Both the position numbers and the translations under genes were made by a program. The notes under the pieces are model-generated. The model did not search any database. It worked only from the letters and a program-made list of their open reading frames with translations, and was not told the DNA's origin. DNA of 46,544 bases from Candidatus Ligilactobacillus excrementigallinarum. Its GTDB lineage: Bacteria > Bacillota > Bacilli > Lactobacillales > Lactobacillaceae. Shown piece after piece: positions 3,266 to 38,312 of the stretch (within the stretch, counting starts at the first letter, position 1; each line of letters starts with the position of its first letter). The DNA lies in contig DXFP01000021.1 of assembly GCA_019114385.1 (NCBI GenBank), positions 1 through 46,544 of the forward strand. The letters run 5' to 3'.

Positions 3266-3430
3266 GTGTGACAAAACACTCTAAACAGGCATGTTGTAAG
3301 GAAAAACCGAACGAATTACGTGGTATTGATTCGGAGTTTTTTTGAATTTACAGACATGCTTGTTTGTTTTGGAAGTTGATTATGCGGATATATAAAAAGA
3401 GGTTGGACTTATGTCACAACCTCTTTTTAT
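3266..3430 (+). repeat. Intergenic inverted-repeat element, copy A
   Basis: gtgtgacaaaacact...aaacaggcatgttgtaag...ttacagacatgcttgttt...aagaggttggacttatgtcacaacctcttttt; related copies at about 6.3, 16.5, 31.0 and 38.0 kb. Confidence 0.85.
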
Positions 3431-3435
3431 ATTAC

Positions 3436-3933
3436 TTATTTCAATGTTTCGATAACCTTTTGAGCAACTGCTTTTCCAGATGCTGGATTTTGACCGGTAA
3501 TTAGGCGACCATCAGCAACTGCAAAACTTTCCCAATTATTTGCACTTTTTTCATAAGAAGCTCCGCGCTTAACTAATTCATCTTCAGTAAGATATGGAAC
3601 AAGATGGTCAAGTTGAACTTCTTTTTCTTCACTGTTAGAAAATCCAGTAACTTTCTTACCATCAATAAGATACTTTCCATCAGAAGTTTTTAGATTTAAT
3701 ATTCCTGCAGCACCATGGCAAACAGAACTTACAATACCGCCTTGATTATAAATTGACATTGCAATTGATTGTAATTTTTCATTATCAGGGAAATCCCAAA
3801 TAACTCCGTGGCCGCCTGTGAAATAAATGACATTATAATCATCAGGAGTGATACTGTCTGCTGCAAGAGTATTTCCTAAACGACTCATGAAACTTGAATT
3901 TTGGTAATATTCCCAATCTAAAGGTGTCATCAT
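3436..3933 (-). pseudogene. DJ-1/PfpI (glutamine amidotransferase class I-like) protein, apparently N-terminally truncated
   Basis: Retains YFTGGHGVIWDFPDN and VSSVCHGAAG nucleophile-elbow region but lacks ~60 N-terminal residues; homology-like frame extends upstream (YIDPHSLAAD) without a start to an in-frame TAA at 3976-3978. Confidence 0.65.
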
Positions 3934-3990
3934 GTCTGCAGCTAAACTATGAGGATCAATATAACATGTCCGTTTTTATAGTGTTCTGTA

Positions 3991-4665
3991 TTATTTAATA
4001 ACTTCTACAATTTCATCCATTGATTGCCGAGTTTTTACTGGCTGTTGCTGATTACGATAGCCTAAGCCAAGCATGACAGAAGTACCAAATTCTACAGGGT
4101 CAATGATTTCTTTATTTGCTAAGTAGCGGTCAACTTTCTCCCGATTAAAACCTTCAATTGGACAACTATCAATACCTAACATTGCAGCTGTGGTCATCAT
4201 GTTAGTAAGCGGGATATAAGTTTGCTTGCTGGCCCAGTCAAATAGGCTGCGTTCAGAATTCAAATCAAAATCATTTTCTTGGAAATCCTTAAATTTTTGA
4301 CTGCGTTCAGAAGTAATTGAGAATTCATGATGCATGACGTCTTCAACCATATGTTTGACGTGCGCACTCTCAATAGTTACATTTTTACGTGCTAAGATAA
4401 TAATGAAATGACTAGCACCATTTAAACTATTTATTGCACCCCAACAAATGTCTTTTAAGTCATTTTTCATTTTTTCGTTTTCAATTACTAAAAATTTCCA
4501 AGGTTCATAACCGAATGAACTTGGAGATAGCCGTCCTGCTTCTAAAATAGTTTCAAAGTCCTTGTTGGAAATTTTTTTAGTTGGATTGAATTTTTTAGTG
4601 GCATATCTGCGTTGAAAAACGTCGATAATTGCTTTTCGTTCTCGAGCAGTACTCATTATAATCAT
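3991..4665 (-). CDS. Nitroreductase family NAD(P)H-dependent oxidoreductase
   Basis: RRYATKKFNPTKKIS...ILEAGRLSPSSFGYEPWKFLVIEN typical of the nitroreductase fold. Confidence 0.85.
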   Translation of the reverse strand: MIIMSTARERKAIIDVFQRRYATKKFNPTKKISNKDFETILEAGRLSPSSFGYEPWKFLVIENEKMKNDLKDICWGAINSLNGASHFIIILARKNVTIESAHVKHMVEDVMHHEFSITSERSQKFKDFQENDFDLNSERSLFDWASKQTYIPLTNMMTTAAMLGIDSCPIEGFNREKVDRYLANKEIIDPVEFGTSVMLGLGYRNQQQPVKTRQSMDEIVEVIK

Positions 4666-4920
4666 CTTCCTTACTTTTTGTTAGTATAATTATAACACGA
4701 AATCTTGCTTGATTTGTTAAAAAAATATAAAGCGTAAATGAGGGTTATCCGCTTTCTTGCTTACTACATATAGTGAAACAAAGTAAATTCACCCCCAAAA
4801 TATAGCTTTATTTTTTGTATAAATGGGGGTATGATAGAAGGTGCTGTTGAATCAGCAAATAATTTTGAAATTAAGAGGCTGGGGGTTTCCTGTCTCGGAA
4901 GAAAGGATGCATCTATCATT

Positions 4921-5664
4921 TTGATTACACTTTCAGGAATTATCGGATCAGGCAAATCAAGCCTTACAGAAATTTTATCAGAAGAATTAGGAACAAAAGC
5001 TTTCTATGAACCAGTTGAAGATAATCCAGTTTTACCTTTGTTCTATAAAGGTAATGAGATTGCTGCGAAGAAACGGGCAGCTGGCGATAAAGAAGCTACG
5101 AATCCTTATGCTTACTTATTACAAACTTTCTTCTTAAATCGGCGGTTTGCAATGATTAAGCAAGCTATGCAAGAAGATAACAACATTTTAGATCGCTCAA
5201 TCTATGAAGATGAAATCTTTATGCGGATGAACACTGAAATGGGAAATGCAACAGACGTTGAATATGATATTTACAAGAGTTTGCTTTCAAATATGATGGA
5301 AGAATTACCATTTGCATCGCATAAAAAATCACCTGATTTGATGATTATGATTAATGTGTCATATGATACGATGCTGAAGCGGATTGAAAAGCGCGGTCGT
5401 GAATATGAACTGGTTGAAAATGACCCTTCATTAGTTGATTATTATCACCGGTTATTGAAACAATATGATATTTGGCGGCAAGAATACGATGCTTCCCCAA
5501 TGTTGGTGATTGATGGTGACAAGTATGACTTTGTAACTAACATGGAAGATCGAGTAGCTGTGCTTGAAATGATTGAACAAAAATTAGTTGATTTAGGTAA
5601 TTTAACTGCCGAAAAATTTGCAGCATTAAAAGAAAAACACCAAATTATGTTGGATCAAAAATAG
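4921..5664 (+). CDS. Deoxynucleoside kinase (dAK/dGK family)
   Basis: ITLSGIIGSGKSSLTE P-loop, DRSIYEDEIF, RIEKRGREYE; likely TTG start at 4921 with RBS GAAAGGA, so the 4831 ATG of the ORF track looks overextended. Confidence 0.85.
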   Translation: MITLSGIIGSGKSSLTEILSEELGTKAFYEPVEDNPVLPLFYKGNEIAAKKRAAGDKEATNPYAYLLQTFFLNRRFAMIKQAMQEDNNILDRSIYEDEIFMRMNTEMGNATDVEYDIYKSLLSNMMEELPFASHKKSPDLMIMINVSYDTMLKRIEKRGREYELVENDPSLVDYYHRLLKQYDIWRQEYDASPMLVIDGDKYDFVTNMEDRVAVLEMIEQKLVDLGNLTAEKFAALKEKHQIMLDQK

Positions 5665-5699
5665 ACACCGAACATTTTACTTATCTTGAAAAATAGATT

Positions 5700-5713
5700 C
5701 GAAAACGATATCA
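5700..5713 (+). promoter_or_regulatory. Candidate cre (CcpA) site overlapping the usp promoter
   Basis: CGAAAACGATATCA, one mismatch to TGAAAACGNTWTCA-like consensus; TTGAAA(5686)-17-TATCAT(5709). Confidence 0.4.
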
Positions 5714-5745
5714 TAATAGTAGATAAGTAAATGGGAGTGTTGACG

Positions 5746-6255
5746 ATGGCATTAGGTTACAAAAACGTTCTCGTCGGAATTGACGGTTCAAAGGGATCAG
5801 AAGCAGCATTGTTCGATGCAGTTAATATTGCAAAGCGTAATGATGCACATTTAGACGTATTATGGGTATTGGATATGAATTCATTAGAATATGGCAATGC
5901 CGGTATTACCTTAGACGGTGAACGTATCTATAATGAAGAGCAAGAATGCGAAAAATACGTGAATGACCTTAAGCAACACTTGGTTGAAGAAGGTTTTCCA
6001 AAGGATAAAATCGCTGTTCACTTGCGGTTTGGCAATCCAAAGACAGTTATTGTTGAAGATTTCCAACCAGAATACCATAATGATTTAATTGTAGTTGGCG
6101 AAACAGGGAAGAACTTCTTTAAACGAATTATTGTCGGTTCTGTAGCTTCATACATTATGCGTACTGCAAAGTGTGATGTAATGATTGCGAAAGCACCAGA
6201 AAAGGTTTTATCAAAAGATATCGATGAAGATATGAAAGATATTGACGATGAATAA
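5746..6255 (+). CDS. Universal stress protein (UspA family)
   Basis: YKNVLVGIDGSKGSEAAL...; VVGETGKNFFKRIIVGSVASYIMRTAKCDVMIAK; ATG 5746 preceded by gggagtg. Confidence 0.85.
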   Translation: MALGYKNVLVGIDGSKGSEAALFDAVNIAKRNDAHLDVLWVLDMNSLEYGNAGITLDGERIYNEEQECEKYVNDLKQHLVEEGFPKDKIAVHLRFGNPKTVIVEDFQPEYHNDLIVVGETGKNFFKRIIVGSVASYIMRTAKCDVMIAKAPEKVLSKDIDEDMKDIDDE

Positions 6256-6274
6256 AAGCGTGAATGCTACGAAA

Positions 6275-6531
6275 GACTGTGACATAAGTCATGGTCTTTT
6301 TTTATATCGAAATAAACGGGCATGATTATTTTGTCACAACTTCTTTCACAAAGAGGTTGTGATATAAGTTTACCCGTGGTAGTTGACCTTCTATTTCTAT
6401 ATCTGCGTAATCGGATTCCAAAACAAATAGGCATGTCTGTAAATTCAAAAACCTTCGAATTAATCCTAAATCCTACGTAATTCGGAGGTTTTTTCCTTAC
6501 AACATGCCTGTTTGGAATGTTTTACCACACT
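6275..6531 (-). repeat. Intergenic inverted-repeat element, copy C (inverted relative to A)
   Basis: Minus strand gtgtggtaaaacattccaaacaggcatgttgtaag...ttacagacatgcctatttgttttgg; plus aaagactgtgacataagtcatggtcttttttt and aagaggttgtgatataag hairpins. Confidence 0.8.
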
Positions 6532-6538
6532 TTTTTTG

Positions 6539-8458
6539 CTATTGTTCAAGTTGATATTGTAAATATGTTTGCGAGTGGTTTTTAATTGGTACACTTGCAA
6601 TTGGATAAGCTGCTTTACCTACTGCAAAATTAATTGGCACGCGGGTGGGATTATAAATTTTGACTTGAAGTTCCCCAGCATGAGCGTGACTAATATTAAT
6701 TTTCTTAAGTTGAGCAGTTGAATTAACTTTGGCAACTAGATGATTTTCTTGAGAAATTGTTGCCTTGATTTTTTGGTTATATCCTAGCGGTAAAAGCTCT
6801 AATTTATGAGCTTTAATTGGCAGTTTAATTCCAGTTGTCAAGGTTTTATGCGGCATAAGGACAATCTGTTCATCTGCTAAATATGAACCAATATTTTGCC
6901 CGGTAATGTATCCTGAAGAATTTAATGGCAAATCAGCGATAACTTTACCAATTAAAATTATAAAAATTACTGTTAAAAATCCCTTTCCCATATGTAATTG
7001 AGAATGTGATAAATCTTTTGTTCGGGATACAAGAGTATCGATTCCTAAAATTCCAAATAGAATCAAAATCGGCAAAAGCGGCAATCCATATCGTTCTTCG
7101 CTTTCCCAAAGTACCGAGTGAAAAATTACAATTCCAATCATAAAGATTACGAGGATTAAATGCGATTTGTCTATTGATGACCAAAGTAGAAAAATAATAG
7201 TTCCACAAAGCAAAATTATATATTCAATTTGAGTTATATTTGCAAGACGAATTTTTAATTGTGTCTGATAATGATAAAACCACTGTGGAGCTTGCTGCCA
7301 CTGTTTAGTTAAGCGTTCAAAGCCAAAGGTGCCTGAACTGGTTAGCAATTGCAATTTAAGTGCACAATGCTGAATTAATCCAGGAAGTTTCATTTGTTTT
7401 AAATTATTAGTAATTAGTTTGATATCAGTTTGAGTTCGTGCTTTTTTAGTTGGGAGGGCAATTTCGTCAAGCGTTTCCCTCTTAAGATAATCTCCATGTG
7501 TGTTTGGATTGGAACTCATCGCAATCCAGTGAGTGACGGGAAGAGCTTGATTAGTTGAAGAATAGTTTGTTGCTTTTTGGATTCCTTTCATTCCAATTGA
7601 AAAAACTAAAAATAGTAAAATAAATGTCCATAATAATTTTGGAAATTGGTTAAAATGATGGCGGCTTATTTCCGAAATTATTATTCCAAGCATTACCGCA
7701 ATTACTAAAATCCAAAAATTACCTTTCATTTTAGCTGCAAACAGCAATAACCCGCTTATTAAAATGAATTTTAACAAATTAATTTTTGTTGGAAAATGCA
7801 TTTCAAGCAGTGCTGCAATCATCAATGGAACGGGTAAAACCCAGATATCGGTATACACAAATAACGCATAGCCGTAAAAAGGTGCAGTGATGATCCAGAT
7901 GAAAATTAATAATGGTTTTAAATATGATTTATTCCATTTGTGCAATAACAAGAGACAAGCGATTAATCCTAGATCTAGCCAAATGAACTGAATTAAATTA
8001 ATTAATATCCAAGGTGACTTTAGGTGCAGTAAGATACTTAATTTAATTAATTCTGAAATCCAAACAGCACAAAAAACGTTATTTGGGTAAATGTTAAAGT
8101 AGTTCATCCAATGATATGAAGCGTGAGCTAATAAGACAGCTTGATTATGAACATAGAAACTGTCTGCACGACCATAATCAACAAAGTTAAATGCAATATA
8201 AATTTGAATCCCAATTAAAATAATTAGTAAAATACGTTGCAAAATTTGGATAAAGTTAGGATGTTTTTTTAAGAAATGAACGCTCCAATAAGTAATCATC
8301 AGCACTGCAAGACAGCTTCCGATTAACTCAATAGGCGACAACCAAGATGAAATCCCCATAAAATCTACTGGAGCAAAAATTGAAAATAAGCTAGTAATTA
8401 ATAAAATGGAAAGTAAGATGATTACAAACATGTTAACGATTAAAGAATTATTCTTCAT
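6539..8458 (-). CDS. Large multi-TM protein, GT-C-like (putative lipid-linked-sugar-dependent glycosyltransferase)
   Basis: ~12 TM segments; paralog of the ORF ending at 12848 (shared ...HWIAMSSNPNTHGDY.../...TWIYMGLNNQTSGTY..., VLWESEERYGLPLLP/IVWETECRYGLILLP). Confidence 0.6.
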   Translation of the reverse strand: MKNNSLIVNMFVIILLSILLITSLFSIFAPVDFMGISSWLSPIELIGSCLAVLMITYWSVHFLKKHPNFIQILQRILLIILIGIQIYIAFNFVDYGRADSFYVHNQAVLLAHASYHWMNYFNIYPNNVFCAVWISELIKLSILLHLKSPWILINLIQFIWLDLGLIACLLLLHKWNKSYLKPLLIFIWIITAPFYGYALFVYTDIWVLPVPLMIAALLEMHFPTKINLLKFILISGLLLFAAKMKGNFWILVIAVMLGIIISEISRHHFNQFPKLLWTFILLFLVFSIGMKGIQKATNYSSTNQALPVTHWIAMSSNPNTHGDYLKRETLDEIALPTKKARTQTDIKLITNNLKQMKLPGLIQHCALKLQLLTSSGTFGFERLTKQWQQAPQWFYHYQTQLKIRLANITQIEYIILLCGTIIFLLWSSIDKSHLILVIFMIGIVIFHSVLWESEERYGLPLLPILILFGILGIDTLVSRTKDLSHSQLHMGKGFLTVIFIILIGKVIADLPLNSSGYITGQNIGSYLADEQIVLMPHKTLTTGIKLPIKAHKLELLPLGYNQKIKATISQENHLVAKVNSTAQLKKINISHAHAGELQVKIYNPTRVPINFAVGKAAYPIASVPIKNHSQTYLQYQLEQ

Positions 8459-8547
8459 AGTTCCATCTTCTTTTCGTTTACATATTTGACAACTAATATA
8501 ATATACTTATATTAATAAAAATTCATGTAAGAAGGATTGAATGTTTT

Positions 8548-9243
8548 ATGAAAAATACGATTTTGCTTGTCGAAGATGAAAAAGGACTAGCGGATTCACT
8601 CGCAACAGAACTAGGATTTGAAGATTATAACGTGATTAGTGCTTCAGATGGATTAGCTGCGGTAGAAGAGTTTCAAAAAAATAAAGAAACAATCGATTTA
8701 ATTCTTTTAGATTGGATGCTTCCAAAATTAGATGGATTAGGGGTTTTGCGTCGAATTCGAAAAGAAAGCCAAGTTCCGGTAATTATGCTTACTGCACGAA
8801 ATTATATTGGTGATAAAGTTGCAGGACTTGACGGCGGAGCGGATGATTATATCACCAAGCCTTTTGAAATTGAAGAATTACTTGCACGTATTCGGGTCGC
8901 AATTCGAAGAGTGGAAAAGCAGGAGAATCATCAAGCTGAACTTTATCAACTTGACGATCTCACATTAAATATCAAGACACATCAAGTATTTCGCGATGAT
9001 GAAAAAATTCAACTAACGCAACGTGAATTTGATTTACTCAAGACACTATTTGAACACGAAAATGAAGTGTTAACGCGTGATGATATCTTGGACCTTGTTT
9101 GGGGAAAAGATTTTCTTGGACAGACTAATATCGTTGATGTTTATATTCGTCTACTACGAAATAAAATTAATGATAATCATAAAGATGAGCAGCTTATAAA
9201 AACTATTAGGGGTGTCGGTTACTCGCTTTCAAAGGAAAAATGA
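8548..9243 (+). CDS. OmpR/PhoB-type response regulator
   Basis: LLVEDEKGLADSLA, LLDWMLPKLDG, MLTARN, DDYITKPF, C-terminal winged helix TIRGVGY. Confidence 0.95.
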   Translation: MKNTILLVEDEKGLADSLATELGFEDYNVISASDGLAAVEEFQKNKETIDLILLDWMLPKLDGLGVLRRIRKESQVPVIMLTARNYIGDKVAGLDGGADDYITKPFEIEELLARIRVAIRRVEKQENHQAELYQLDDLTLNIKTHQVFRDDEKIQLTQREFDLLKTLFEHENEVLTRDDILDLVWGKDFLGQTNIVDVYIRLLRNKINDNHKDEQLIKTIRGVGYSLSKEK

Positions 9244-9339
9244 AAAATTTTCATTTAAAATTCATAAGATTTAAGTATATTCATCTGGATATTTTTTCTA
9301 TACTTCAAAATGGAAAGAAGTTAGGAAGGAAAAATCAAG

Positions 9340-9999
9340 ATGATTACAACACTGTTAACTACAGTATCAGGATTTAGCACTTATCTTCCGCACTTAATCT
9401 CACAATTTGGAAGTGGTTTTTACCTGATACTTTTTTTATTAATTTTTTGTGAAACGGGAGTAGTATTTTTACCATTTTTACCAGGAGATTCGCTTTTGTT
9501 TCTTTGTGGTTCATTTGCAGCAATTGCTAACGATCATTTAAATATTGTGATATTGCTTATTTCTTTAATAATTGCCGCTTTTCTCGGAGATAATACTAAT
9601 TTCTGGATTGGGCAAAAATTTGGAAAACATATTTTAAATCATCCTCGATGGCGGAAGCTGATAAAAGAGGAATATTTGGAAAAAGCCAATCATTTTTTTG
9701 AAAAATACGGTTCACTAGCGATTTTTCTTGGGAGATTTATTCCAATTATTAGAACAATTATTCCATTTACAGCGGGAGTAGGGAAGATGCCTGCTGGAAA
9801 ATTTCGCCTTTTTAATTTGATTGGTGGAGTCACATGGGTAACAATTGCTTTAATGAGCGGATTCTTTTTTGGAAATATTTCGTTTGTTAAGAATCATATT
9901 GAATTAATCATGCTGGCAATTGTGATTGTTTCGTTGATTCCGGTATTGGTTACCTTTGTTATTCAACATAAGAAGGAAGGTTCTCCAGATGAAGAATAA
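9340..9999 (+). CDS. DedA/SNARE-associated family membrane protein
   Basis: FCETGVVFLPFLPGDSLLF; FLGRFIPIIRTIIPFTAGVGKM. Confidence 0.9.
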   Translation: MITTLLTTVSGFSTYLPHLISQFGSGFYLILFLLIFCETGVVFLPFLPGDSLLFLCGSFAAIANDHLNIVILLISLIIAAFLGDNTNFWIGQKFGKHILNHPRWRKLIKEEYLEKANHFFEKYGSLAIFLGRFIPIIRTIIPFTAGVGKMPAGKFRLFNLIGGVTWVTIALMSGFFFGNISFVKNHIELIMLAIVIVSLIPVLVTFVIQHKKEGSPDEE

Positions 10000-10924
10000 A
10001 CTTGCAATTGTTGTTCCAGCATACAACGAAGAAAAAGTTTTAAAACAAACAATTAAAGTTCTTACCCAACTAATTCGTGATTTACAACCAAAGCAAATTG
10101 CTTCCGATAGTTTTATTCTCTTCGTTGATGATGGATCAACTGATCAAACATGGAATTTTATCAAAACCGCAAGTTTGCAAAATCCGATGATTCGAGGATT
10201 AAAACTTGCGCGTAACTTTGGACATCAATATGCTTTATGGGCAGGATTAATGGAAGTTCGATCACAAGTTGATTTCAGCATTTCAATTGACACTGATTTA
10301 CAGGATGATCCGACGGTTATTCCACAAATGATCAATGATTATGAAGAAAAAGGCTGGCAAATAGTTTATGGTGTACGCAATAATCGTGATAATGATCGAT
10401 GGTTAAAACGAACAACTGCCAATTTATTTTACAAAGTTATGAATTTAATTGGAACTCATATCGTTCCAAATCATGCCGATTTTCGATTAATGTCCCGGAA
10501 AGCACTGGATTTATTAGCTTTATATCCTGAACGTCAGCTGTTTTTACGTGGATTAATTCCTCAATTAGGATTAAAAACGGGAAAAGTAACCTATAAAAGG
10601 CAAACTCGAAAAGCCGGTCAAAGTAAATATACGGTTCCTAAAATGCTTAATCTGGCCTGGAATGGAATAACTCTATTTTCAAATGCATTGTTACGAGTAC
10701 CAACGCTTCTTGGAATTTTAACATTCTTATTGGGCTGTGTTTTAGGAGGAATTCAAATGTTGAATATGCATCATGTTAGTTGGAATTTAATATTGTTTTT
10801 GATTGTTTCAAGTACAATTTTAATTTCATTGGGAATAATTGCTGAATACCTTGGAAAAATTTTTAATGAAATTAAAGGACGACCACGTTATTTAATTGAA
10901 GAACGGACGATTCGTCATGACTAA
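9989..10924 (+). CDS. GT2 polyprenyl-phosphate glycosyltransferase (GtrB/DPM1/CsbB-like)
   Basis: IVVPAYNEEKVL, FVDDGSTDQTW, ARNFGHQYALWAG, IDTDLQDDP; two C-terminal TM helices; ATG 9989 with RBS AAGGAAGG, overlapping the dedA stop. Confidence 0.85.
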   Translation: MKNKLAIVVPAYNEEKVLKQTIKVLTQLIRDLQPKQIASDSFILFVDDGSTDQTWNFIKTASLQNPMIRGLKLARNFGHQYALWAGLMEVRSQVDFSISIDTDLQDDPTVIPQMINDYEEKGWQIVYGVRNNRDNDRWLKRTTANLFYKVMNLIGTHIVPNHADFRLMSRKALDLLALYPERQLFLRGLIPQLGLKTGKVTYKRQTRKAGQSKYTVPKMLNLAWNGITLFSNALLRVPTLLGILTFLLGCVLGGIQMLNMHHVSWNLILFLIVSSTILISLGIIAEYLGKIFNEIKGRPRYLIEERTIRHD

Positions 10925-15009: not shown

Positions 15010-16506
15010 ATGGCATCACAAACTAAGAAAATTGGTTTGATGACTCTTGTAATGATGATTATTTCATCAATTTACGGATTCGCAAACACCCCCCGCGCAT
15101 TTATGCAAATGGGATATGCAAGTATTATTTGGTACATTTTAGCTGCGTTAGTCTTTTTCTTACCAGTTAGTTTAATGCTTGCAGAATATGGATCTTCGTT
15201 TAAAGAAGCAAAGGGTGGAATTTACTCATGGCTTGAAGGTTCAATTGGTGAAAAATGGGCCTTTGTTGGTACCTTTATCTGGTTATCAGCTTGGATTATT
15301 TGGTTGGTTCAAGCCGCTTCTAGTTTTTGTATTCCACTATCTTCAGTGATTTTTGGAAAAGACACGACTTCTTCATGGCATTTATTTGGATTATCCTCAG
15401 TTGAAACTTTAGGAGTAATCGGGATTGTCTGGGTCTTAGTAGTTACATTCTTCTCATCAAAAGGGATGGATGCAATTGCTAAAGTCTCAACTGTCGGCGG
15501 CTTTTTCAACGTTGCATTAAATGGCTTATTCTTAGTAATTAGTATCATTGTATTGATTTGTAATCATGGTCACTTGGCAGAACCAATCAGTGGAATGAGT
15601 TCATTTATTCATTCGCCAAATAGCCAATTTACGACTCCAATCGCAATGATTTCATTCATCGTATATGCTATCTTTGCATATGGCGGAATGGAAACCATGG
15701 GTGGAATCATGGATAGTTTGGATAAACCGGAAAAGACCTTCCCTAAAGGAATCTTATTGGCAACGATTTTCATTACTGTAGGTTATGCGGTAACAATCTT
15801 CATGTGGGGCTTCAGTACAAATTGGCACCAAGTATTCGGTTCAGGTCAAGTTACACTGGGAAATGTTACATATGTATTAATGGGAAACTTAGGGGTTGCT
15901 TTTGGACAGGCAATTGGAGTTTCACATCATACTGCGCTGCTCTTTGGCAGTTTGATGACCCGTTTCACTGGATTAAGTATTTTACTTGCCGTTTTAGGAA
16001 GCTTCTTCATTATGACATACTCACCAATTAAGTCGTTTATTTTAGGTTCAGATGAACGCTTATGGCCAAAGAAAGTTACGAAGTTAAACAAGGCAGGCAT
16101 GCCGGCATTTGCAATGTGGATTCAATGTGCAGTGGTCTGCATCTTTATCTTCTTTATTTCATTTGGCGGTTCAGCAGCAAGCAAGTTCTTTACGATTTTA
16201 ACAAATATGTCAAATGTTTCTACTACATTCCCATATTTGTTCTTAGTAGGGGCATTCCCATTCTTTAAGAAGTTGAAGGACATTGATCGTCCATTTGTCT
16301 TCTTTAAGAGTAAGTTCTGGACAAACTTGATTGTAGCTTTATGTTTGATTGTTCTATCAGGCGGAATTATTTTCACAGTAATTCAACCAATTATTGAACA
16401 TCAATATGGCAATGCTTTTTGGACAATCATTGGACCAATCTTCTTTGGTTCAATTGCATTGATCTTCTATGAAATTGCTAACCGAAAACGTAAGAAAACA
16501 AATTAG
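15010..16506 (+). CDS. APC-superfamily amino acid permease (YjeM/glutamate-GABA antiporter-like)
   Basis: 12-TM permease; ISSIYGFANTPRAFMQMGYASIIWY. Confidence 0.8.
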   Translation: MASQTKKIGLMTLVMMIISSIYGFANTPRAFMQMGYASIIWYILAALVFFLPVSLMLAEYGSSFKEAKGGIYSWLEGSIGEKWAFVGTFIWLSAWIIWLVQAASSFCIPLSSVIFGKDTTSSWHLFGLSSVETLGVIGIVWVLVVTFFSSKGMDAIAKVSTVGGFFNVALNGLFLVISIIVLICNHGHLAEPISGMSSFIHSPNSQFTTPIAMISFIVYAIFAYGGMETMGGIMDSLDKPEKTFPKGILLATIFITVGYAVTIFMWGFSTNWHQVFGSGQVTLGNVTYVLMGNLGVAFGQAIGVSHHTALLFGSLMTRFTGLSILLAVLGSFFIMTYSPIKSFILGSDERLWPKKVTKLNKAGMPAFAMWIQCAVVCIFIFFISFGGSAASKFFTILTNMSNVSTTFPYLFLVGAFPFFKKLKDIDRPFVFFKSKFWTNLIVALCLIVLSGGIIFTVIQPIIEHQYGNAFWTIIGPIFFGSIALIFYEIANRKRKKTN

Positions 16507-16534
16507 TGTTAAATAAAATAATCAAGAATTGAAG

Positions 16535-16797
16535 GTGTGACAAAACACTCAAAACAAGCATGTTGTAAGGAAAAAAACGAACGAATTACGTAGTAAAAAT
16601 TCGGAAGCTTTTGAATTTACAGACATGCTTGTTTGTTTTGAAACCTGATTATACGGATATATAAATAGAGGCTGGACTTATGTCACAACCTCTTTTTGAT
16701 AATCGAATTTAAAATAAACGGGTATGCTTATAAGTTCTAAACTACTGCATCAAATTACGTGATTCAGTAGTTTTTTCCTTATAGCATATCCGTTTTT
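16535..16797 (+). repeat. Intergenic inverted-repeat element, copy B (two hairpin arms)
   Basis: gtgtgacaaaacactcaaaacaagcatgttgtaagg...; central aatagaggctggacttatgtcacaacctcttttt; second arm aaacgggtatgcttataag...cttatagcatatccgttt. Confidence 0.8.
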
Positions 16798-17562: not shown

Positions 17563-18381
17563 ATGACAATTAAAATGATTGCAACTGATATTGATGCAAC
17601 TTTAGTAAATGATGATAAGAAGATTACACCACGGACTTTAAGTGCACTTAAAGAAGCACGTAAACGTGGAGTGTATGTTGTATTATGCACTGGTCGGCCA
17701 GTTTCTGGTATTCAAGATTACTTGGAACAATTGGGATTAACTACGAAAAATGACTATGCTATTACTTTCAATGGAGCTCAGGGACGCAATGTTGGTACTG
17801 ATGAAGTGATTTTTCAAAATGAAATTACTGCAAATCAACATTCTCAACTAGTGGATTTGAGTCATCAACTGGGAGTGCACGGCCAATTAGTGACGGCCGA
17901 CTCACAATTATATGTAACCGATCGTGACATTAGCGATTATTCAGTAATGGATGCTTTTTACACGCATATGGGATTACATTATCGTGAATTAGTTGATTTT
18001 CCACAAGATATGAAAGGCACAAAATTCATGTGGGCAGACAAGCCGGAAATTATTTCCCAGGCAATGACCCAAATTCCTCAGTCGATTCATGATCAATTTT
18101 ATACGGTTTTAAGTGCACCGTGGTTTTTAGAATTTACTAACCCAGCTGCAACTAAAGGACATGCGGTATTAGAATTAGCGTCCCATCTTGGAATTCAGCC
18201 AACTGAAATTATGACGGCCGGAGATGAAAATAATGATTTAACCATGATTGAAGCTGTACCGCATAGTGTTGCAATGGGAAACGGCAACTCAGTGGTTAAA
18301 GCTAAAGCAGCATATATCACAGATGATAATAATCATGATGGATTAGGTAAAGCGATAGAAAAATTTGTATTAAATGAATGA
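17563..18381 (+). CDS. HAD-superfamily Cof-type phosphatase
   Basis: IATDIDATLVNDDKKITPRTLSAL; AGDENNDLTMIE. Confidence 0.9.
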   Translation: MTIKMIATDIDATLVNDDKKITPRTLSALKEARKRGVYVVLCTGRPVSGIQDYLEQLGLTTKNDYAITFNGAQGRNVGTDEVIFQNEITANQHSQLVDLSHQLGVHGQLVTADSQLYVTDRDISDYSVMDAFYTHMGLHYRELVDFPQDMKGTKFMWADKPEIISQAMTQIPQSIHDQFYTVLSAPWFLEFTNPAATKGHAVLELASHLGIQPTEIMTAGDENNDLTMIEAVPHSVAMGNGNSVVKAKAAYITDDNNHDGLGKAIEKFVLNE

Positions 18382-29057: not shown

Positions 29058-29096
29058 TTAATAATAAATACAATGTATAAAAAATAACTTATTGAT

Positions 29097-29516: not shown

Positions 29517-29527
29517 AGATTGAGTCA

Positions 29528-30439: not shown

Positions 30440-30501
30440 TTTAGTGGTAAGATATCTGTAAAGAAGTAAATTAGGAGTATTAAAATCTGGAGGATTAACT
30501 T

Positions 30502-30981: not shown

Positions 30982-31003
30982 TGTAAAATATAATAGAATG
31001 CAA

Positions 31004-31264
31004 CAAACGGATATGCTGTAAGAAGAAATTGAACGAATCATGGATATTAATTCGGGAAATTTCGGCCTTGCAAGCATACCTGTTTTTATTGATTATGCAG
31101 GATAAGAGAGGTTGTGACATAAGTCCAGCCTCTATTTATATATCCGTATAATTGAGTTCCAAAACAAACAGGCATGTCTGTAAATTTAAAAAAACTCCGA
31201 ATCAATACTACGTAATTCGTTTGTTTTTTTCTTACAACATGCCTGTTTAGAGTGTTTTGTCACA
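31004..31264 (-). repeat. Intergenic inverted-repeat element, copy D (two hairpin arms)
   Basis: Arms 31004-31087 and 31165-31251; terminal tgtgacaaaacactct on minus strand; central agaggttgtgacataagtccagcctct. Confidence 0.8.
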
Positions 31265-31357
31265 TCTTCTTCGTTTACATGTAATGTGAGATTTATTGGT
31301 TAATATTTTGTTGCATACGCGCGGTTCAGTCTTATATTAACTAGGCGGCTTTACATC

Positions 31358-31606
31358 CTAACTTAACCAATCATATCTTAATAATTGATTAGTTTTCTGG
31401 TTAACTGGAATCCACAAATGATGGTGCCAAATATCTTTCAAAATTTCAGTAAAAATCTTCAAAGAGCCTTTCTTTTGTTGACTCTTTGGATACTCAATTT
31501 CAATATACTTATTTTGTTCAGTTTTAAGAATAATTTTCTTATTTTTTAAACTGACTATCTGTGCTGAAACAATATCTGAGTCAGCCGTGATTGATTTTTT
31601 CTCCAT
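31358..31606 (-). CDS. Hypothetical 82-aa protein
   Basis: ORF only; codon usage plausible. Confidence 0.4.
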   Translation of the reverse strand: MEKKSITADSDIVSAQIVSLKNKKIILKTEQNKYIEIEYPKSQQKKGSLKIFTEILKDIWHHHLWIPVNQKTNQLLRYDWLS

Positions 31607-31780
31607 AAATCACATCTCAATTCTAGTGAATATATTATCTATGTTCACAATTCTATCCTACATGATGATTGTGAAGAATATGTGCATTTGATGTTAAAAC
31701 TTCTGGGTAAAAGGATAATATTCAAATTATTTGCAATTATAAAAATAACCAAATTCATTAAAAATATTTAAAGTATTTAA

Positions 31781-31808
31781 TTTACATTAACATTTATCAA
31801 TAATATAA
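31781..31808 (+). promoter_or_regulatory. Promoter of the DUF1700-DUF4097-PspC cluster
   Basis: TTTACA (31781) - 16 nt - TATAAT (31803). Confidence 0.6.
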
Positions 31809-31862
31809 TGTAACTAGGGAAGAGGAGACATTATTCGATTTTAAAGTGTCAAAATTATTATA

Positions 31863-31882
31863 AACGTTGATAAATCAACGTT
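31863..31882. promoter_or_regulatory. Perfect 20-bp palindrome in the leader of the DUF1700 operon
   Basis: AACGTTGAT-AA-ATCAACGTT. Confidence 0.5.
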
Positions 31883-31943
31883 TTGGTTTAAATATTTAAT
31901 TAAGGATCAGAAAGGCAGCATCGGTTGCCTGGAGGAGTAAATC

Positions 31944-32576
31944 ATGGACAAGGAAAAATATTTGGTCGATTTGGAAAGTGCAATTAAGCAACTTCCAGAA
32001 GATGAACGCTGCAAAATAATCGCAAAATACGAACAACTAATTGCCGCAGCGAATCTTGTGACCGAAAGTGAAATTGAACAACATTTTGGAACAGCACGTC
32101 AATTAGGACGACAGATTCTGGCAGAAAATGCGCTTGAAGTACGCAAGCGAATTCAAAAACATCATCCTCAACTGTTATCCGTTAATTGGCATGCTTTTTT
32201 AATGATAATGATGGCTGTTTATAGTTCACCAATGACTTATCTGGCTGGCGTTGCCGGGATGACATTAGAATTTTTAGCAGGATTAATTATTTTCTTAATT
32301 GGTTTTGTGATTATTGTTGGTTTATCTGCAGCAACAGTTCTTGGCGGAGTATTAATTTATGCAGGAATTGGTACATTAGGAATGGCCTTTGCGGTTGGAA
32401 TGTTTCACTTAGGAATTGGGTTGCTTTTTATTGCATTTAATTTCTTTATCGTACCTTTAATTCATAGAATTTATGTTGCTTTGTTTGCAGGTTTAAGCAA
32501 TTTGGGGCAAAAGATTTATGTGAAATTCAAGGCACGTTGGGAAAAGAATTTAAAGCTTGAAAAGGAGGCCCAATAA
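31944..32576 (+). CDS. DUF1700-family membrane protein
   Basis: MDKEKYLVDLESAIKQLPEDERCKIIAKYEQLI + 4 TM; RBS GGAGGAG. Confidence 0.8.
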   Translation: MDKEKYLVDLESAIKQLPEDERCKIIAKYEQLIAAANLVTESEIEQHFGTARQLGRQILAENALEVRKRIQKHHPQLLSVNWHAFLMIMMAVYSSPMTYLAGVAGMTLEFLAGLIIFLIGFVIIVGLSAATVLGGVLIYAGIGTLGMAFAVGMFHLGIGLLFIAFNFFIVPLIHRIYVALFAGLSNLGQKIYVKFKARWEKNLKLEKEAQ

Positions 32577-33556
32577 TGAAAATCAAGCGAAATTTAAAGT
32601 GGGGCACGTTGATTTTATTAGTTGGGATCTTTTGTACCATATTCGGTGCATTGAATAATGGGGTCAAAAGTATTGCCTTTGATGGAATTCGACCAGTTGT
32701 TCCAGAAAAAGAACGTCAGTACCGGGAATCAATTGAAAATGAAGCATTTGATTCAATTGATATTGATGTTAAGCGTGCGAAGATTAAAATTCAGCGCGGC
32801 AAGCATTACGCAGTTACATATCAAGGTAAAAAGTCTAATGTGCCAACGATATCAGTTGATAATCATCAATTAGTAATTAATCAGACAAATAATATTTTGA
32901 CAGAAACAGCGAATACGATTCATTGGAAAGAGTCAACGCGGGTCGATCGAGATAACAGTACGATTTTAATTACTGTTCCCGAAAATGTAAAATTACAAAA
33001 AGTTCGTGTATTTAATAATTATGGAATGACGAGTGTTTTGAATATCGATACCTCAATGCTGGAAGTTACAGAAATGGAAGGCGGAATTATTTTGAAAAAA
33101 ACAGCAGCTGATGCGGTTGATTTGGAAGCTGATTCCGGAAAAGATATGTATTTGCAAGATGTTGACTTAGAAAATGGGCAAATTCAAAATACAGGAGTTG
33201 GATTAAATATCAATGACGGTTCGTTAAAGAATATGGCTGTTGACGCTAACCATGGTGATGTTGCATATCAAAAATTATCAGTTGATGGCGGTTCGATTAA
33301 TAATGATGATGGTGATGTAACTTTGAATAAGTTAGAAATTGTGAATGGCTTTACAGTAAATACATGTCGAGGTAATAATAAGGTCACTGATATTGAAAAC
33401 TCAGCCTTCAAGCTTTCTGCACGTAACGGAAAGAATAAATTGTTCAACCAAAGTCAGACAGCCAATAATGAAATGAAATCAATTCAAAATACAAATTCAA
33501 AGGATAACATCTTGAGTTTGACGGTCATAAATGGTAATAATGTAGTTAAGCAATAG
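32576..33556 (+). CDS. DUF4097-family (LiaX-like beta-propeller/adhesin-like) protein
   Basis: N-terminal TM, repetitive beta-strand pattern (FDSIDIDVKRAKIKIQRG...), coupled to the DUF1700 gene. Confidence 0.75.
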   Translation: MKIKRNLKWGTLILLVGIFCTIFGALNNGVKSIAFDGIRPVVPEKERQYRESIENEAFDSIDIDVKRAKIKIQRGKHYAVTYQGKKSNVPTISVDNHQLVINQTNNILTETANTIHWKESTRVDRDNSTILITVPENVKLQKVRVFNNYGMTSVLNIDTSMLEVTEMEGGIILKKTAADAVDLEADSGKDMYLQDVDLENGQIQNTGVGLNINDGSLKNMAVDANHGDVAYQKLSVDGGSINNDDGDVTLNKLEIVNGFTVNTCRGNNKVTDIENSAFKLSARNGKNKLFNQSQTANNEMKSIQNTNSKDNILSLTVINGNNVVKQ

Positions 33557-33567
33557 GAGGGTTTTAT

Positions 33568-33801
33568 ATGGCAAAAAAGAAACGGTTGACTAAATCAACA
33601 GATAAAGTTTTATGCGGTGTATTCGGCGGAATTGCAGAATACTTTGGCTGGGATAAAGCGATTACCCGAATTGTGGGTGCATTTTTAATCCTTTTCCCAG
33701 GCGGTGTATTACCTGGAGCAATTTTGTATTTTATTGCTGCTATGGTGATGCCTAGTCCAACTAAACCCAACATTATTGAAGGGGAATTTAAAGAAAAATA
33801 A
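33568..33801 (+). CDS. PspC-domain protein
   Basis: KKRLTKSTDKVLCGVFGGIAEYFGWDKAITRIVGAFLILFPGG. Confidence 0.9.
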   Translation: MAKKKRLTKSTDKVLCGVFGGIAEYFGWDKAITRIVGAFLILFPGGVLPGAILYFIAAMVMPSPTKPNIIEGEFKEK

Positions 33802-33889
33802 AAAAGGAACTGTACCTAAATCCGTTTATTAACGAAAAAAGAATACAGTATTATAATATGTTTATGAGTTGAAAGGAAGCTTTAGAACT

Positions 33890-34387
33890 ATGTTATCAGA
33901 AAAATTAAGTTTAACTTTTGGACCTGAAAAAGAATTAAAAGAAATTATCGCTGCTCACCCTGAACGGAAATTCAAATTATTTCACGCAGCAGATGATAAT
34001 TCAGAATTTATGTTGATGGATTGCTCTGGAAAAGAATCAATGTTTCATTCAGGATTAGATTACTATATTTGCGGCGAAATTAATCCAAATGAAAATTCAA
34101 CTAATGGTTACATTGAATGCCGTTACGTAACATTAAACGAAGATGAACAAAAAGTATTTAAGTCAATTTTCAAGTCATGGGATGCAGAAGCTAAACGCCC
34201 AGTAGGTTTGGATTCAAGTGTTTTGGTCCACTCTTTGAAAGATAATTTTGAATTTCTGTTGATTAATCAATGGGAAGACGAAAATGTGTTTATGGTTTGG
34301 GATAATGATAAAGACAATCAGATGAACCAATTTGGACATGATGGTAATTCAACTCCGGTTGTTAAGACATATCGTGAAATTGGATAG
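33890..34387 (+). CDS. Hypothetical protein, possible antibiotic-biosynthesis-monooxygenase-like fold
   Basis: 165-aa ORF from ATG 33890 with RBS gaaaggaag; FEFLLINQWEDENVFMVW resembles ABM domains (weak). Confidence 0.6.
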   Translation: MLSEKLSLTFGPEKELKEIIAAHPERKFKLFHAADDNSEFMLMDCSGKESMFHSGLDYYICGEINPNENSTNGYIECRYVTLNEDEQKVFKSIFKSWDAEAKRPVGLDSSVLVHSLKDNFEFLLINQWEDENVFMVWDNDKDNQMNQFGHDGNSTPVVKTYREIG

Positions 34388-34405
34388 ATAAGAAACATAA
34401 CATTA

Positions 34406-34456
34406 TTGAGAGGTTGCGACGTAAGTCCGGCCTTTTTTATTTGCATAATCGAGTTT
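34406..34456 (+). repeat. Degenerate remnant of the intergenic element (central hairpin plus one flank)
   Basis: tgagaggttgcgacgtaagtccggcctttttt...tgcataatcgagtt matches the centre/flank of copies A-E. Confidence 0.55.
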
Positions 34457-34558
34457 TATTGCTTAAATTGCATAAAATCCGAATAAATATTGAGATATCT
34501 AAAATAAAGCATTAAAATTATTACATAGAAGAATTAGGAAATAGAAAGGATTGTAATT

Positions 34559-35587
34559 ATGAAATATTGTCCAAATTGCGGCACTCCTAATAAAGACGAT
34601 GCACAGTTTTGTGCAAATTGTGGTGCTCCAATAAGTAACACCTCTGCTGGTGAACATCTATCGCGCACAGGAGCTGCCCAAAATGAACAATCAACAAATA
34701 CAAATGTTAACCAATTTGCTCCACAACCTCCTAAGAAATCTCATGGATGGCTAATCGCGCTTTTAGTTATTGTAATTATTGTATTAGTAGTTGTAATTGG
34801 CGGAGTGATTGGAAGCCAATCCAAGAAATCAAATGCTAAGGCGGAACAAAGTGCAAAGACCGAAGTTAGTCAAAAGCAAAAAGCAACGACAAATAACGAT
34901 GACTCGAATTTGTCAGCAGATAATTTAACTCCTCAACAAACGGCAACTGCAATTGCTTACTATCAAGGTACAAATAGTTTAGCATGGAGTGCAGTTTCAA
35001 CTGATCAGATGTCACATGATGTTTATGTCCAAAAGAACGGTGACGAAAATATTTCGAATAAAGGGGCTGGCGTTTCATACTGGTTTGGTGCAGTTGGAAA
35101 CGGATATAGTGAATACACATTATCGAATAATGGTAAGACAGTCAACATTTATCAAATTGATTCTGGATCAGATTCTGTTCAAGACCCTAAAGAATCAGTT
35201 TCATTGCAAACTATAGTTGATACCGTAAATAGCAAGCATGTTGCTCAAAAAGTTAGAGATGTAGCTAATGGGGTACATGTCAAAGATTATCGCTCTGATT
35301 CTGATAATCACGATAATGATAGTAACAATAATAATGTTGATACAACTAAATTGAATAAGGATCAAGTGAAGGATTGGGCTTTACGGACATTTAAACATGA
35401 TTATTCTGATTCTGCGGACGATGATTTATCGACTGAATATTTAGGAGTCGATGATGATAATTATGCCGAAGTAGAAGTTCATGATCATGACGATAGTGAT
35501 ATGGATACTACATATCGAGTTAACGGTAGTGGTGAATTGCAAGAAAAGACTGGCGACAGTTGGACAACGGTGAGCGATTCATATTAA
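34559..35587 (+). CDS. Zinc-ribbon single-TM protein with extracytoplasmic domain
   Basis: MKYCPNCGTPNKDDAQFCANCGAPI, TM helix, Asp/Asn/His-rich linker; architecture similar to the 2508-3257 product. Confidence 0.75.
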   Translation: MKYCPNCGTPNKDDAQFCANCGAPISNTSAGEHLSRTGAAQNEQSTNTNVNQFAPQPPKKSHGWLIALLVIVIIVLVVVIGGVIGSQSKKSNAKAEQSAKTEVSQKQKATTNNDDSNLSADNLTPQQTATAIAYYQGTNSLAWSAVSTDQMSHDVYVQKNGDENISNKGAGVSYWFGAVGNGYSEYTLSNNGKTVNIYQIDSGSDSVQDPKESVSLQTIVDTVNSKHVAQKVRDVANGVHVKDYRSDSDNHDNDSNNNNVDTTKLNKDQVKDWALRTFKHDYSDSADDDLSTEYLGVDDDNYAEVEVHDHDDSDMDTTYRVNGSGELQEKTGDSWTTVSDSY

Positions 35588-35638
35588 AATAAATTTTATT
35601 GTAATTTAGATTTTATTGAAAAAGGAAGGAAATATATT

Positions 35639-35983
35639 ATGGCAGTACAAGCAGAATTAACAAAGGGTCAAATTATTTATTTGGCAATTGCAGAATACAA
35701 GGGAAAGAATTATGCAAAGCCATTTTTGGCAAGTGAAGCATATAAACTTGTAAATGAAAAGTTAGGTGAATTGAAGGCGAGCCAATCACGGATGCAAAAG
35801 AATACTTTTATTTTTGAAGTAAATGAAATGTTAGCAAATCAAAGTCGGAATGAAAATTTACTTGGATTGCATTTAACACGTAAGTTTGGCAAGCATTTCA
35901 AAGACGTAACCGGCAAACAAACGTTGACAGCAGATAATTTTGATGATAATAATTTATATCTATCAGTTGAAAAATTAGGTTAA
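35639..35983 (+). CDS. Hypothetical 114-aa protein
   Basis: ORF with RBS ggaagga. Confidence 0.6.
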   Translation: MAVQAELTKGQIIYLAIAEYKGKNYAKPFLASEAYKLVNEKLGELKASQSRMQKNTFIFEVNEMLANQSRNENLLGLHLTRKFGKHFKDVTGKQTLTADNFDDNNLYLSVEKLG

Positions 35984-35987
35984 TAAG

Positions 35988-36027
35988 AAAACCGAGATGA
36001 TGACATTAATTGTCTAGTCTCGGTTTT
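35988..36027. terminator. Bidirectional terminator
   Basis: AAACCGAGA...TCTCGGTTTTTT between convergent genes. Confidence 0.8.
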
Positions 36028-36051
36028 TTTAGTGGTTAAAATTTTGTTGTA

Positions 36052-36477
36052 TTAAAGCTTCATTATATATTCTAAAGCACCGGTTTCAGATTCGATTTGT
36101 TCATTGATAATTTTAAAGCCAAAATCACGATAAAAGGCCATCGCTGTGGTATTTTGTTTGTAAACTTCAAGTGTTAATGTGGAATACTTGGCTTGGACGT
36201 ATTTTAACAACTGAGTTCCAATCCCTTGATGACGAAATTCACGTTTAACAAATAAACCGGCAATGTAATTTTTAACCAAACCAATGAAGCCTGTTATGAT
36301 ATTGTCACGGACTTCTACATAGACTTCAGCTTCGGTTAAAGCTGCTTGTACTTCATCAAAGTGGGATTGCCAGTAATTTTTATTAATAAACGGATGAGCA
36401 TCTAAGTTACTGAATAACCAAATTCGCATAACTTGATTAATTTCATTTTGGTTGGTTAAGTCTAAAGTTCTTATCAT
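36052..36477 (-). CDS. GNAT-family N-acetyltransferase
   Basis: GLVKNYIAGLFVKREFRHQGIGTQLLKYV; YRDFGFK. Confidence 0.9.
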   Translation of the reverse strand: MIRTLDLTNQNEINQVMRIWLFSNLDAHPFINKNYWQSHFDEVQAALTEAEVYVEVRDNIITGFIGLVKNYIAGLFVKREFRHQGIGTQLLKYVQAKYSTLTLEVYKQNTTAMAFYRDFGFKIINEQIESETGALEYIMKL

Positions 36478-36528
36478 GAAATTCCTCCTATTTTTTAATG
36501 TATATAATGTTTTTAATATATCCGATAC

Positions 36529-36559
36529 TTGACATATATTTAGAAATCGATATTATAAT
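36529..36559 (+). promoter_or_regulatory. Promoter-like sequence at the head of the hairpin-rich region
   Basis: TTGACA (36529) - 19 nt - TATAAT (36554). Confidence 0.5.
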
Positions 36560-36569
36560 GATATGGATG

Positions 36570-37180
36570 TTAATTTAACTAATATTTAATATTTTTAATT
36601 ATTTTATAAAAAATATGCTTGATTTACATGTGTAAACATCTTACTATTAATAAGTAAGGCCCGAAAGGAGGTGAGGCGGTGACCGATATTTTAAGATGGT
36701 TAAAGTCAAGTCAAACAATGCAACCGGTATTTTTGCCCAGTACTAGGTTATTGTTTACAGGTTTTAATTATAAAAAAGAGCATTACATAGTAAAATTTGG
36801 GACAGTATAAAAACTATGCAATGCTCATTCTTAATTTATCTGTCATAAAGAAATAACTATAATTATGCGAATTATTGTATGCAATCTTTATGACTGGTTT
36901 CATTTTAACATGATTATCAAAATTGTGAAATCGCCGAATTAAAAGCGATTATCCATGTTTTGATAAACGATTTAATGTTAGATGAAACGGATGTTCGTGT
37001 AGGGTGATTTGAAAGCGTTAAACGGATAAATTGTTTCGAAATAAAACATAATTATCCGGAGATTAAAGAAAGTTATAAAATTTTATTTTACTCAAAATTT
37101 TTGATTTAAAAAGGAGTAAATAGTTAATTTGACCCTAATGACGAAAGTGAAAATTCAAAATAGGCCCGATTTTGAATTAA
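36570..37180 (+). ncRNA. Candidate structured non-coding RNA region with serial hairpins
   Basis: Inverted repeats at 36778-36826, 36842-36894, 36914-36966 (nested), 37023-37058, 37152-37178; no long ORF. Confidence 0.35.
36679..36810 (+). CDS. Candidate 43-aa ORF with near-perfect Shine-Dalgarno
   Basis: AAAGGAGGTGAGGCG-GTG; MTDILRWLKSSQTMQPVFLPSTRLLFTGFNYKKEHYIVKFGTV. Confidence 0.3.
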   Translation: MTDILRWLKSSQTMQPVFLPSTRLLFTGFNYKKEHYIVKFGTV

Positions 37181-37269
37181 AATATACCCAAACGCTTTTA
37201 AACTTACAAGCTGAAAGTAGTCGTAATACTGCATACATTATCTTAATCTAAACAAAAGCGTGATAAATT

Positions 37270-37497
37270 ATGTATGTATTATTTAATGCTCAACATCAAA
37301 TCCTGATTGAGGAAGAAGATTTATTGACCCAGAAAAAGATTTACTATTTCGCAAGCCCAGCGAAAGTAAAGGCTGTAAATTCTTACTCAAATAAAACAGC
37401 TAAAATAAAACGCTTCTTCTCTCCTAAATCCTTTCCCAACTATTATTGGCAAAAAGATAACCGGGTGTTGAGAAAACAAATTCGAGATAATTATTAA
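37270..37497 (+). CDS. Small hypothetical protein, paralog of the 37761-37997 product
   Basis: 75 aa; MYVLFNAQHQILIEEEDLLT...PAKVKAVNSYSNKTAKIKRFF. Confidence 0.55.
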   Translation: MYVLFNAQHQILIEEEDLLTQKKIYYFASPAKVKAVNSYSNKTAKIKRFFSPKSFPNYYWQKDNRVLRKQIRDNY

Positions 37498-37501
37498 GCT
37501 T

Positions 37502-37541
37502 AAAATCCTTTAGATACATGCTTGAAGCAATCTAAAGGATT
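37502..37541 (+). terminator. Terminator
   Basis: AAATCCTTTAGAT...ATCTAAAGGATTTGTTT, 13-bp perfect stem. Confidence 0.75.
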
Positions 37542-37760
37542 TGTTTCTTAAGAGGTTAAGAATATCGCAAACAATCTTAAGTTTATCTTTGTATCATTAT
37601 GAACGTATTAATTTTTTAGCTATTTAATTAATGTATTTAAAAAACTCTATCAATGAGAGGCTAGAGTGCCTATTGTTACTGAATTACTAGTATAATAAAG
37701 AATGTAGAAAAGTTAAGGTCTAAATATTAATTAAATACATAAAAGAAGAGGAAGTTAACA

Positions 37761-37997
37761 ATGTACGTTTTACTTGATGATCAAGGAAACGTTCTGATTG
37801 AGGAAACGAACCTTGCAACGGGAGATAGCTTGGAACGCTTCGTAAAACCAGAGAAGATTAAAGCAATTAACACTTACCGCAATAAAGATGCACGAGTAAA
37901 GACTTTCTTCCCATGGTACTCATTCAAGAACAGTTATCATTTAGTAAAAAAGAGTAAGTGGCTTCACAGTGTAAAAAGTAATATTGTCTTATCCTAA
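37761..37997 (+). CDS. Small hypothetical protein, paralog of the 37270-37497 product
   Basis: 78 aa; MYVLLDDQGNVLIEETNLAT...PEKIKAINTYRNKDARVKTFF; RBS gaagaggaag. Confidence 0.65.
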   Translation: MYVLLDDQGNVLIEETNLATGDSLERFVKPEKIKAINTYRNKDARVKTFFPWYSFKNSYHLVKKSKWLHSVKSNIVLS

Positions 37998-38024
37998 TAA
38001 CGAAATAAAACTACAAAAGAGAAG

Positions 38025-38312
38025 GTGTGTCAAAACACCAAAAACAGGCATGTTGTAAGAAAAACGGACGAATTACGTAGGATTAATTCGGAAGTTTTTG
38101 AACTTACAACATGCCTGTTTGTTTTGGAAGTTGATTATGCGGATATAGAAATAGGAGCTAGACTGATGTCGCAGCCTCTTTCATGGTTTATATAATTGAG
38201 TTCAAAAAAAACGAGTACGCCTATAAGTTTGAAATTCTCTGAATTCTTGCTTTATGATTCAGAAGATTTTTCCCTTACAAGGTACTCGTTTTTGGTGTCT
38301 TATTACACTTCT
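38025..38312. repeat. Intergenic inverted-repeat element, copy E (two hairpin arms, full length)
   Basis: gtgtgtcaaaacacc-aaacaggcatgttgtaag...cttacaacatgcctgttt (perfect 18-bp stem)...gcagcctcttt...aaacgagtac...gtactcgttt-ttggtgtcttattacac. Confidence 0.85.

Follow-up and report, generated by a model that had tools for sequence, protein, structure and literature searches.

The 46,544-nucleotide stretch of Candidatus Ligilactobacillus excrementigallinarum analysed here (contig DXFP01000021.1, hereafter the window) has eight convergent gene junctions. Five of them carry a copy of one palindromic repeat and three a plain hairpin terminator, as a preliminary description of the window had counted. 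What is this repeat, and why does it lie where genes converge? All five copies (A to E) were found again, and the work reported below supports the proposal of a mobile or amplified, MITE-like element; its ends resemble terminators, and convergent junctions are strongly over-represented among its sites. Our preferred answer, to which we assign a probability of about 0.8, is that we are looking at a non-autonomous MITE of the IS1182 type, which takes the place of terminators and brings along its own. What can be observed directly are inverted repeats, the replacement of hairpins by repeat units, lineage-specific amplification, ends shared with IS1182 elements, and nesting of units within each other.

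Anatomy of the repeat unit

Alignment of 25 to 30 copies defined a unit of ~167 bp with imperfect terminal inverted repeats (GAAGGTGTGACAAAAC... / ...CTTATGTCACAACCTC). It consists, in this order, of an I end (GAAGGTGTGACAAAACACC), a long hairpin (AAACAGGCATGTTGTAAGG ... TTTACAGACATGCCTGTTT, with the inner stem CGAATT..ATTCG), a conserved spacer for which no structure is predicted (GTTTTGGAACCCGATTATGCGGATATA), and a T end, which itself folds as a terminator hairpin (AGAGGYTGGACTTATGTCACAACCTCT). Compared as inverted repeats, the I and T ends match imperfectly (AGAAGGTGTGACAAAA versus AGAGGTTGTGACATAA). Folding calculations gave a stable T hairpin on either strand (-19.5 and -18.4 kcal/mol) and, on the opposite strand, a weak hairpin for the I end. 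The unit is short, is present in many copies and lacks a transposase gene; it is non-coding.

In four congeners we found a sister subfamily with the hairpin arms AAACGAGC...GCTCGTTT, in which several pairs are altered on both sides. Between the subfamilies 95.8% of the paired cells were retained, compared with at most 51% when the partner was slid. This covariation supports the hairpin, and is essentially one contrast between two clades rather than many independent events. The spacer is the best-kept unstructured part of the unit across subfamilies (30 of 32 consensus positions); the same segment is present in all units, and it is absent from the IS1182 ends as seen.

Single and compound copies in the window

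Copy A is a single complete unit (3261-3430, + strand; 180-bit profile match) between the convergent genes at 2502-3257 (+) and 3436-3933 (-). All its parts lie on the + strand: the I end with the terminal inverted repeat GAAAGTGTGACAAAACACT (3261-3281; weak hairpin on the - strand), the long imperfect hairpin with the inner stem CGAATTACG..ATTCG (3282-3366), the spacer (3367-3395), and the T end (3399-3428), which combines the terminator-like hairpin with the terminal inverted repeat common to IS1182 ends.

Copies B to E had been described as two-fold symmetric. This symmetry was confirmed, but in most cases a degraded unit of greater age makes up the second half. Copies C, D and E each join a high-scoring and a low-scoring unit in opposite orientation, with one T hairpin in common. 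In copy C, the younger unit (16530-16697, +; 177 bits) occupies the T hairpin position of an older inverted unit, whose remainder follows at 16698-16797 (-; 42 bits, boundary approximate). Copy D consists of an older unit at 30997-31103 (+; 45 bits, boundary approximate) and a younger one at 31104-31271 (-; 178 bits), and copy E of a younger unit at 38020-38181 (+; 151 bits) and an older inverted one at 38182-38309 (-; 48 bits, boundary approximate). Copy B is more rearranged: a T-like hairpin GAAAGACTGTGACATAAGTCATGGTCTTTT (6271-6300, +) is followed by debris of an older unit with arm and I-end remnants, read from the sequence (6301-6347, unstranded), and by the main unit in reverse orientation (6348-6533, -; 137-bit match). 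The hairpin at 6271 was also the only T hairpin in the window copies that a simple terminator scanner called as terminator-like. Those it skipped nonetheless fold to a strong stem, and the scanner's loop and tail limits may be the reason they went uncalled. A partial copy comprising a T hairpin and a trace of the spacer (34408-34455, -; 23-bit match) lies between tandem genes, just past the stop at 34387. In the window as a whole, the motifs far exceeded their expectation in dinucleotide-shuffled sequence (arm, 6 versus 0.2; terminator motif, 7 versus 0.01; spacer, 3 versus 0.02; terminus, 4 versus 0.19).

Our gene caller had placed no + strand gene before copy E, missing a 78-aa ORF at 37761-37997 (+) that adjoins it. 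This ORF is kept in the relatives G003, G001, G004 and G041, which bears out the earlier placement of copy E between convergent genes. Together with a 75-aa ORF at 37270-37497 (+) it looks like a pair of tandem paralogues with similar starts (MYVLL... and MYVLF..., respectively).

The compound architecture recurs genome-wide. In 17 of 19 compounds in the census described below the T side of the old unit faces the young one, although some of the 'old' matches are short and may represent a double reading of the palindromic T hairpin; when only compounds with a recognisable old body were considered, 9 of 11 showed the T-side join (table read by eye; p = 0.07). Such an arrangement would be expected if a young unit had taken the place of an old unit's T hairpin.

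Gene context across the genome

The genome to which the window belongs (G000; 1.47 Mb, 67 contigs) was surveyed by a profile search over 613 kb of stretches around pattern and similarity matches. These contained 88 unit loci, 48 between convergent genes, 36 between tandem genes, 1 between divergent genes and 3 at contig ends, and the genome as a whole holds about a hundred copies. As G000 has similar numbers of convergent and divergent junctions, the ratio of 48:1 is a strong bias (p about 2e-13). Using a 206-kb sample of the remaining sequence, we estimated an occupancy by units of about 37% for convergent junctions, 3.4% for tandem ones and 0.8% for divergent ones; these figures are slightly low, since the sample holds a few more degraded copies.

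The expected convergent enrichment was thus found, together with a substantial tandem class. The intact copies of the window do lie exclusively between convergent genes, as had been stated, but genome-wide 36 of the 85 classifiable loci (42%) are tandem and 1 is divergent, so that 'tolerated only there' is not exact. Our home-made gene caller misses some small genes, and some 'tandem' loci, copy E included, are therefore truly convergent. The tandem units lie a median of 13 nt past the upstream stop codon and 125 nt before the next start, and the I end faces the upstream gene in 27 of 36 cases (p = 0.004). Therefore, the placement rule is 'at a gene 3' end' and not convergent junctions only.

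Terminator hairpins are replaced by units

The congeners G001, G003, G010 and G018 align at roughly 79-97%, mostly 90-97%, along the stretches compared, and we mapped the unit flanks among them. The search for empty sites in relatives succeeded: at eight clear sites a unit is present in at least one genome and missing in others, and every empty allele folds as an intrinsic terminator. Another site (site 2) was ambiguous, as its empty alleles may derive by deletion, and was excluded from the count. The junctions of window copies D and E each carry a plain hairpin in G004 and G041, which brings the number of informative orthologous junctions to ten. At all ten, a terminator hairpin stands in the empty allele and the unit stands in its place in the filled one. 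Site 12 illustrates this: G003 has AAAAAGACTGGGCTGTTAAGCCTAGTCTTTTTTAGCG, whereas G018 has AAAAAGAAGGTGTGACAAAACAG ... TGTCACAGTCTTTTTTAGCG, so that the hairpin is lost and the A- and T-tracts that flank it are kept on either side. At site 3, downstream of the permease gene (window 15010-16506), the replacement separates G001 from G003, G010 and G018; here, as at site 18, some bases of the left flank are missing too. Even G003 and G018, aligned at about 95%, differ in the presence of units among these sites.

Most convergent junctions should have an intact terminator, and a hairpin in the empty allele would thus by itself be unsurprising; the argument for replacement, as we read these alignments, rests on the loss of the hairpin combined with the retention of the flanks. 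Target-site duplications, which the preliminary description had proposed to look for, were not seen by eye at the compared sites, nor was any intermediate allele that keeps both hairpin and unit. The unit can occupy one position in either orientation, as at site 0 (G003 versus G018 and G001). Opposite orientations within the same boundaries in close relatives, noted for the junction at window position 18381 (L124, L125, L126), arose by independent insertion, replacement or inversion.

Distribution and amplification

Six genomes, all of one genus, were found to contain full units, with many in each of G000, G001, G003, G010 and G018 and one in G002; none turned up in the remainder of the 41 genomes searched, G012 included. 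There was no match in plasmids, phages or viral contigs (the last searched with one exact pattern). Rfam contains no family matching the unit at the gathering score, and relaxed thresholds yielded only sub-threshold matches, none of them credible. The exact arm pattern gave 43 matches over named genome contigs, a set that may omit G000 and its closest kin, and no unit was recognised among them. Three matches in Enterococcus proved on inspection to be one common, apparently protein-coding sequence; the remaining ones, scattered over unrelated phyla and uninspected, were treated as chance.

Unit copies are 91% identical within G000, 91% among the sisters and 75% between the groups, as expected if each lineage had amplified its own version of the unit.

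The unit shares its end with IS1182 elements

The unit search also matched the ends of an insertion sequence in G012, whose transposase belongs to the IS1182 family according to NCBIfam NF033551. Seven copies with different flanks carry the common end repeat AAGAGGCTGTGACATAAGTC (left-end repeat: AGAGGCTGTGACATAAGTC); therefore, the repeat is the insertion sequence's own. In G000 itself, an IS1182 fragment at a contig edge ends in AGAGGTTGTGACATAAGTC, identical to the T end of the unit in 19 of 19 nt, and three ends of this kind, differing at one to a few positions, are present in G018. The I end resembles IS1182 ends less than the T end does. In G018 (contig C38), an IS1182 end directly follows the spacer of a unit, at the position expected for the T hairpin.

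IS1182 is represented in G000 and G018 only by fragments at contig edges, the one in G000 carrying a premature stop, and we found no IS1182 transposase in G001, G003 and G010. The assembly of G000 contains no complete gene for an IS1182 transposase, so that the role of this enzyme as mobiliser of the unit is one that we infer. By eye, the fragments L231 (G000 C7:4-294) and L230 (G018 C27:1-402) are near-identical over the 5' transposase region, which suggests that IS1182 moved recently between the two species, whose units are only 75% alike. A second IS1182 group in G012 (L108-L117) comprises ten near-identical copies with the ends GGGGCTGGGAAAAAACT, and several of their left ends follow A-rich sequence. 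Among the IS1182 copies of G012, one (L107) differs from the others in a possible 9-bp direct repeat, GCACAAAAA, on either side.

Proposed mechanism and alternatives

According to the model we favour, an IS1182-type transposase acting in trans probably recognises the two inverted-repeat ends of the unit. The unit would then take the place of a palindromic target hairpin, usually an intrinsic terminator, rather than insert beside it, commonly keeping the flanking A- and T-tracts and creating no target duplication. Loss of the hairpin and insertion of the unit would occur in the same event, of which the end states alone are visible. The terminator hairpin of the unit would in turn serve as a target for younger units and, in one relative, for an IS1182 copy; such nesting at the T hairpin of an older unit would produce the two-fold compound copies. 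Because one end of the unit bears a strong terminator-like hairpin and the other end a weak one, transcription probably still stops at a filled site. These T and I hairpins, along with the A- and T-tracts that are kept, should preserve termination, which would explain why insertions are tolerated.

Tolerance, one of the readings offered in the preliminary description, is probably not the main reason for the position of the repeat. Its fullest version is an ordinary MITE inserting near-randomly near gene 3' ends, with selection clearing the other insertions and the redundant host terminator deleted later, so that convergent enrichment would reflect tolerance only, as proposed for the pneumococcal BOX, RUP and SPRITE repeats (PMC3049150). 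The same argument has thus been published, and it accounts for the near absence at divergent junctions. However, the hairpin is gone at every one of the ten informative sites, even between genomes as close as G003 and G018, and neither an intermediate with both hairpin and unit nor a duplication was seen; we consider this explanation improbable. Because relatives show a pre-existing terminator hairpin replaced, the position is explicable by targeting of terminator palindromes.

Replacement might instead be the work of a transposase outside the IS1182 family, the common 19-nt end reflecting convergence or the landing of IS1182 elements in units. Most carriers are indeed without an assembled intact IS1182, and units are common as targets. 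Against this, the same end is found on all seven G012 copies in different surroundings, in a genome where no full unit was found, and the same unusual mode of insertion has been published for the IS1182 family, which leaves this alternative only a minor chance, if a slightly better one than that of random insertion. By far the least probable is a host-encoded family of bidirectional terminators spread by gene conversion: one end does have a terminator-like hairpin and arm pairing is kept between subfamilies, but the units have inverted-repeat ends, come and go between close species, occur in both orientations at one site and are missing from most congeners. The presence/absence pattern likewise disfavours a host RNA structure without mobility.

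If the favoured model of terminator replacement holds, one may speculate that a large share of the terminators has been captured by a selfish element, which replaced hairpins, brought its own and became the terminator for roughly two in five convergent gene pairs, and that the host now depends on it for termination, a reading we put forward only tentatively. If it is true, the unit's own terminator is a fresh target, and accumulation can continue at little added cost. It raises the question of whether mobile DNA can take over the terminators of a genome.

Comparison with known systems

We found no description of this particular element, in keeping with the initial impression that it belongs to no named family, but in its ends and its mode of insertion it agrees with the IS1182/IS1272 family. 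REP palindromes are likewise intergenic with a possible role in termination, but, as far as the available part of the source describes them, they measure 20-40 bp and carry GTAG or CGTC tags (PMC3733652), whereas the unit has ~167 bp and IS1182-type ends; size was decisive in rejecting this assignment. Streptococcus pneumoniae likewise has short interspersed repeats, SPRITE, RUP and BOX, that are enriched between convergent genes. Like the unit, SPRITE resembles a terminator and is located near gene 3' ends, while RUP and BOX are bounded by terminal inverted repeats. Unlike the unit, however, RUP and BOX duplicate their targets; no empty site was found for SPRITE, and hairpin replacement is undescribed for the pneumococcal repeats (PMC3049150). 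For some of the interspersed repeats that accumulate between convergent genes, our data offer targeting, and not tolerance alone, as a mechanism.

A large survey found IS1182-family elements over-represented between convergent genes (PMC9208149), and IS1182-derived MITEs have been listed for Methanosarcina. Those of M. acetivorans (partner ISMac2) resemble the unit in being non-autonomous, 160-169 bp long and bounded by inverted repeats; they exist in 7-14 copies, their inverted repeats measure 25-26 bp, a 4-bp direct repeat is present in one of them, and the portion of the source available does not report hairpin replacement, the comparison being one of descriptions rather than sequences (PMC3852290).

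The closest parallels are staphylococcal and belong to the IS1182 family. IS1272 inserts into inverted-repeat targets, which it replaces without duplications (PMC5678879), and TnSha1 inserts into hairpins, several of which are terminators confirmed by RNA-seq (PMC4923244). Both share with the unit a hairpin target that is often a terminator and is lost wholly or partly, the lack of a target duplication, insertion in either orientation and end repeats of similar length (PMC5678879, PMC4923244). Both are far larger (1,945 bp and 3,022 bp, respectively) and encode a transposase (PMC5678879, PMC4923244), whereas the unit is non-coding, reaches about a hundred copies and brings its own terminator-like hairpin. 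In the literature that we found, hairpin-replacing transposition rests on these two staphylococcal elements. The unit family adds ten natural before/after pairs from another genus and a minimal substrate of ~167 bp, with which the recognition of DNA hairpins by a transposase becomes directly testable.
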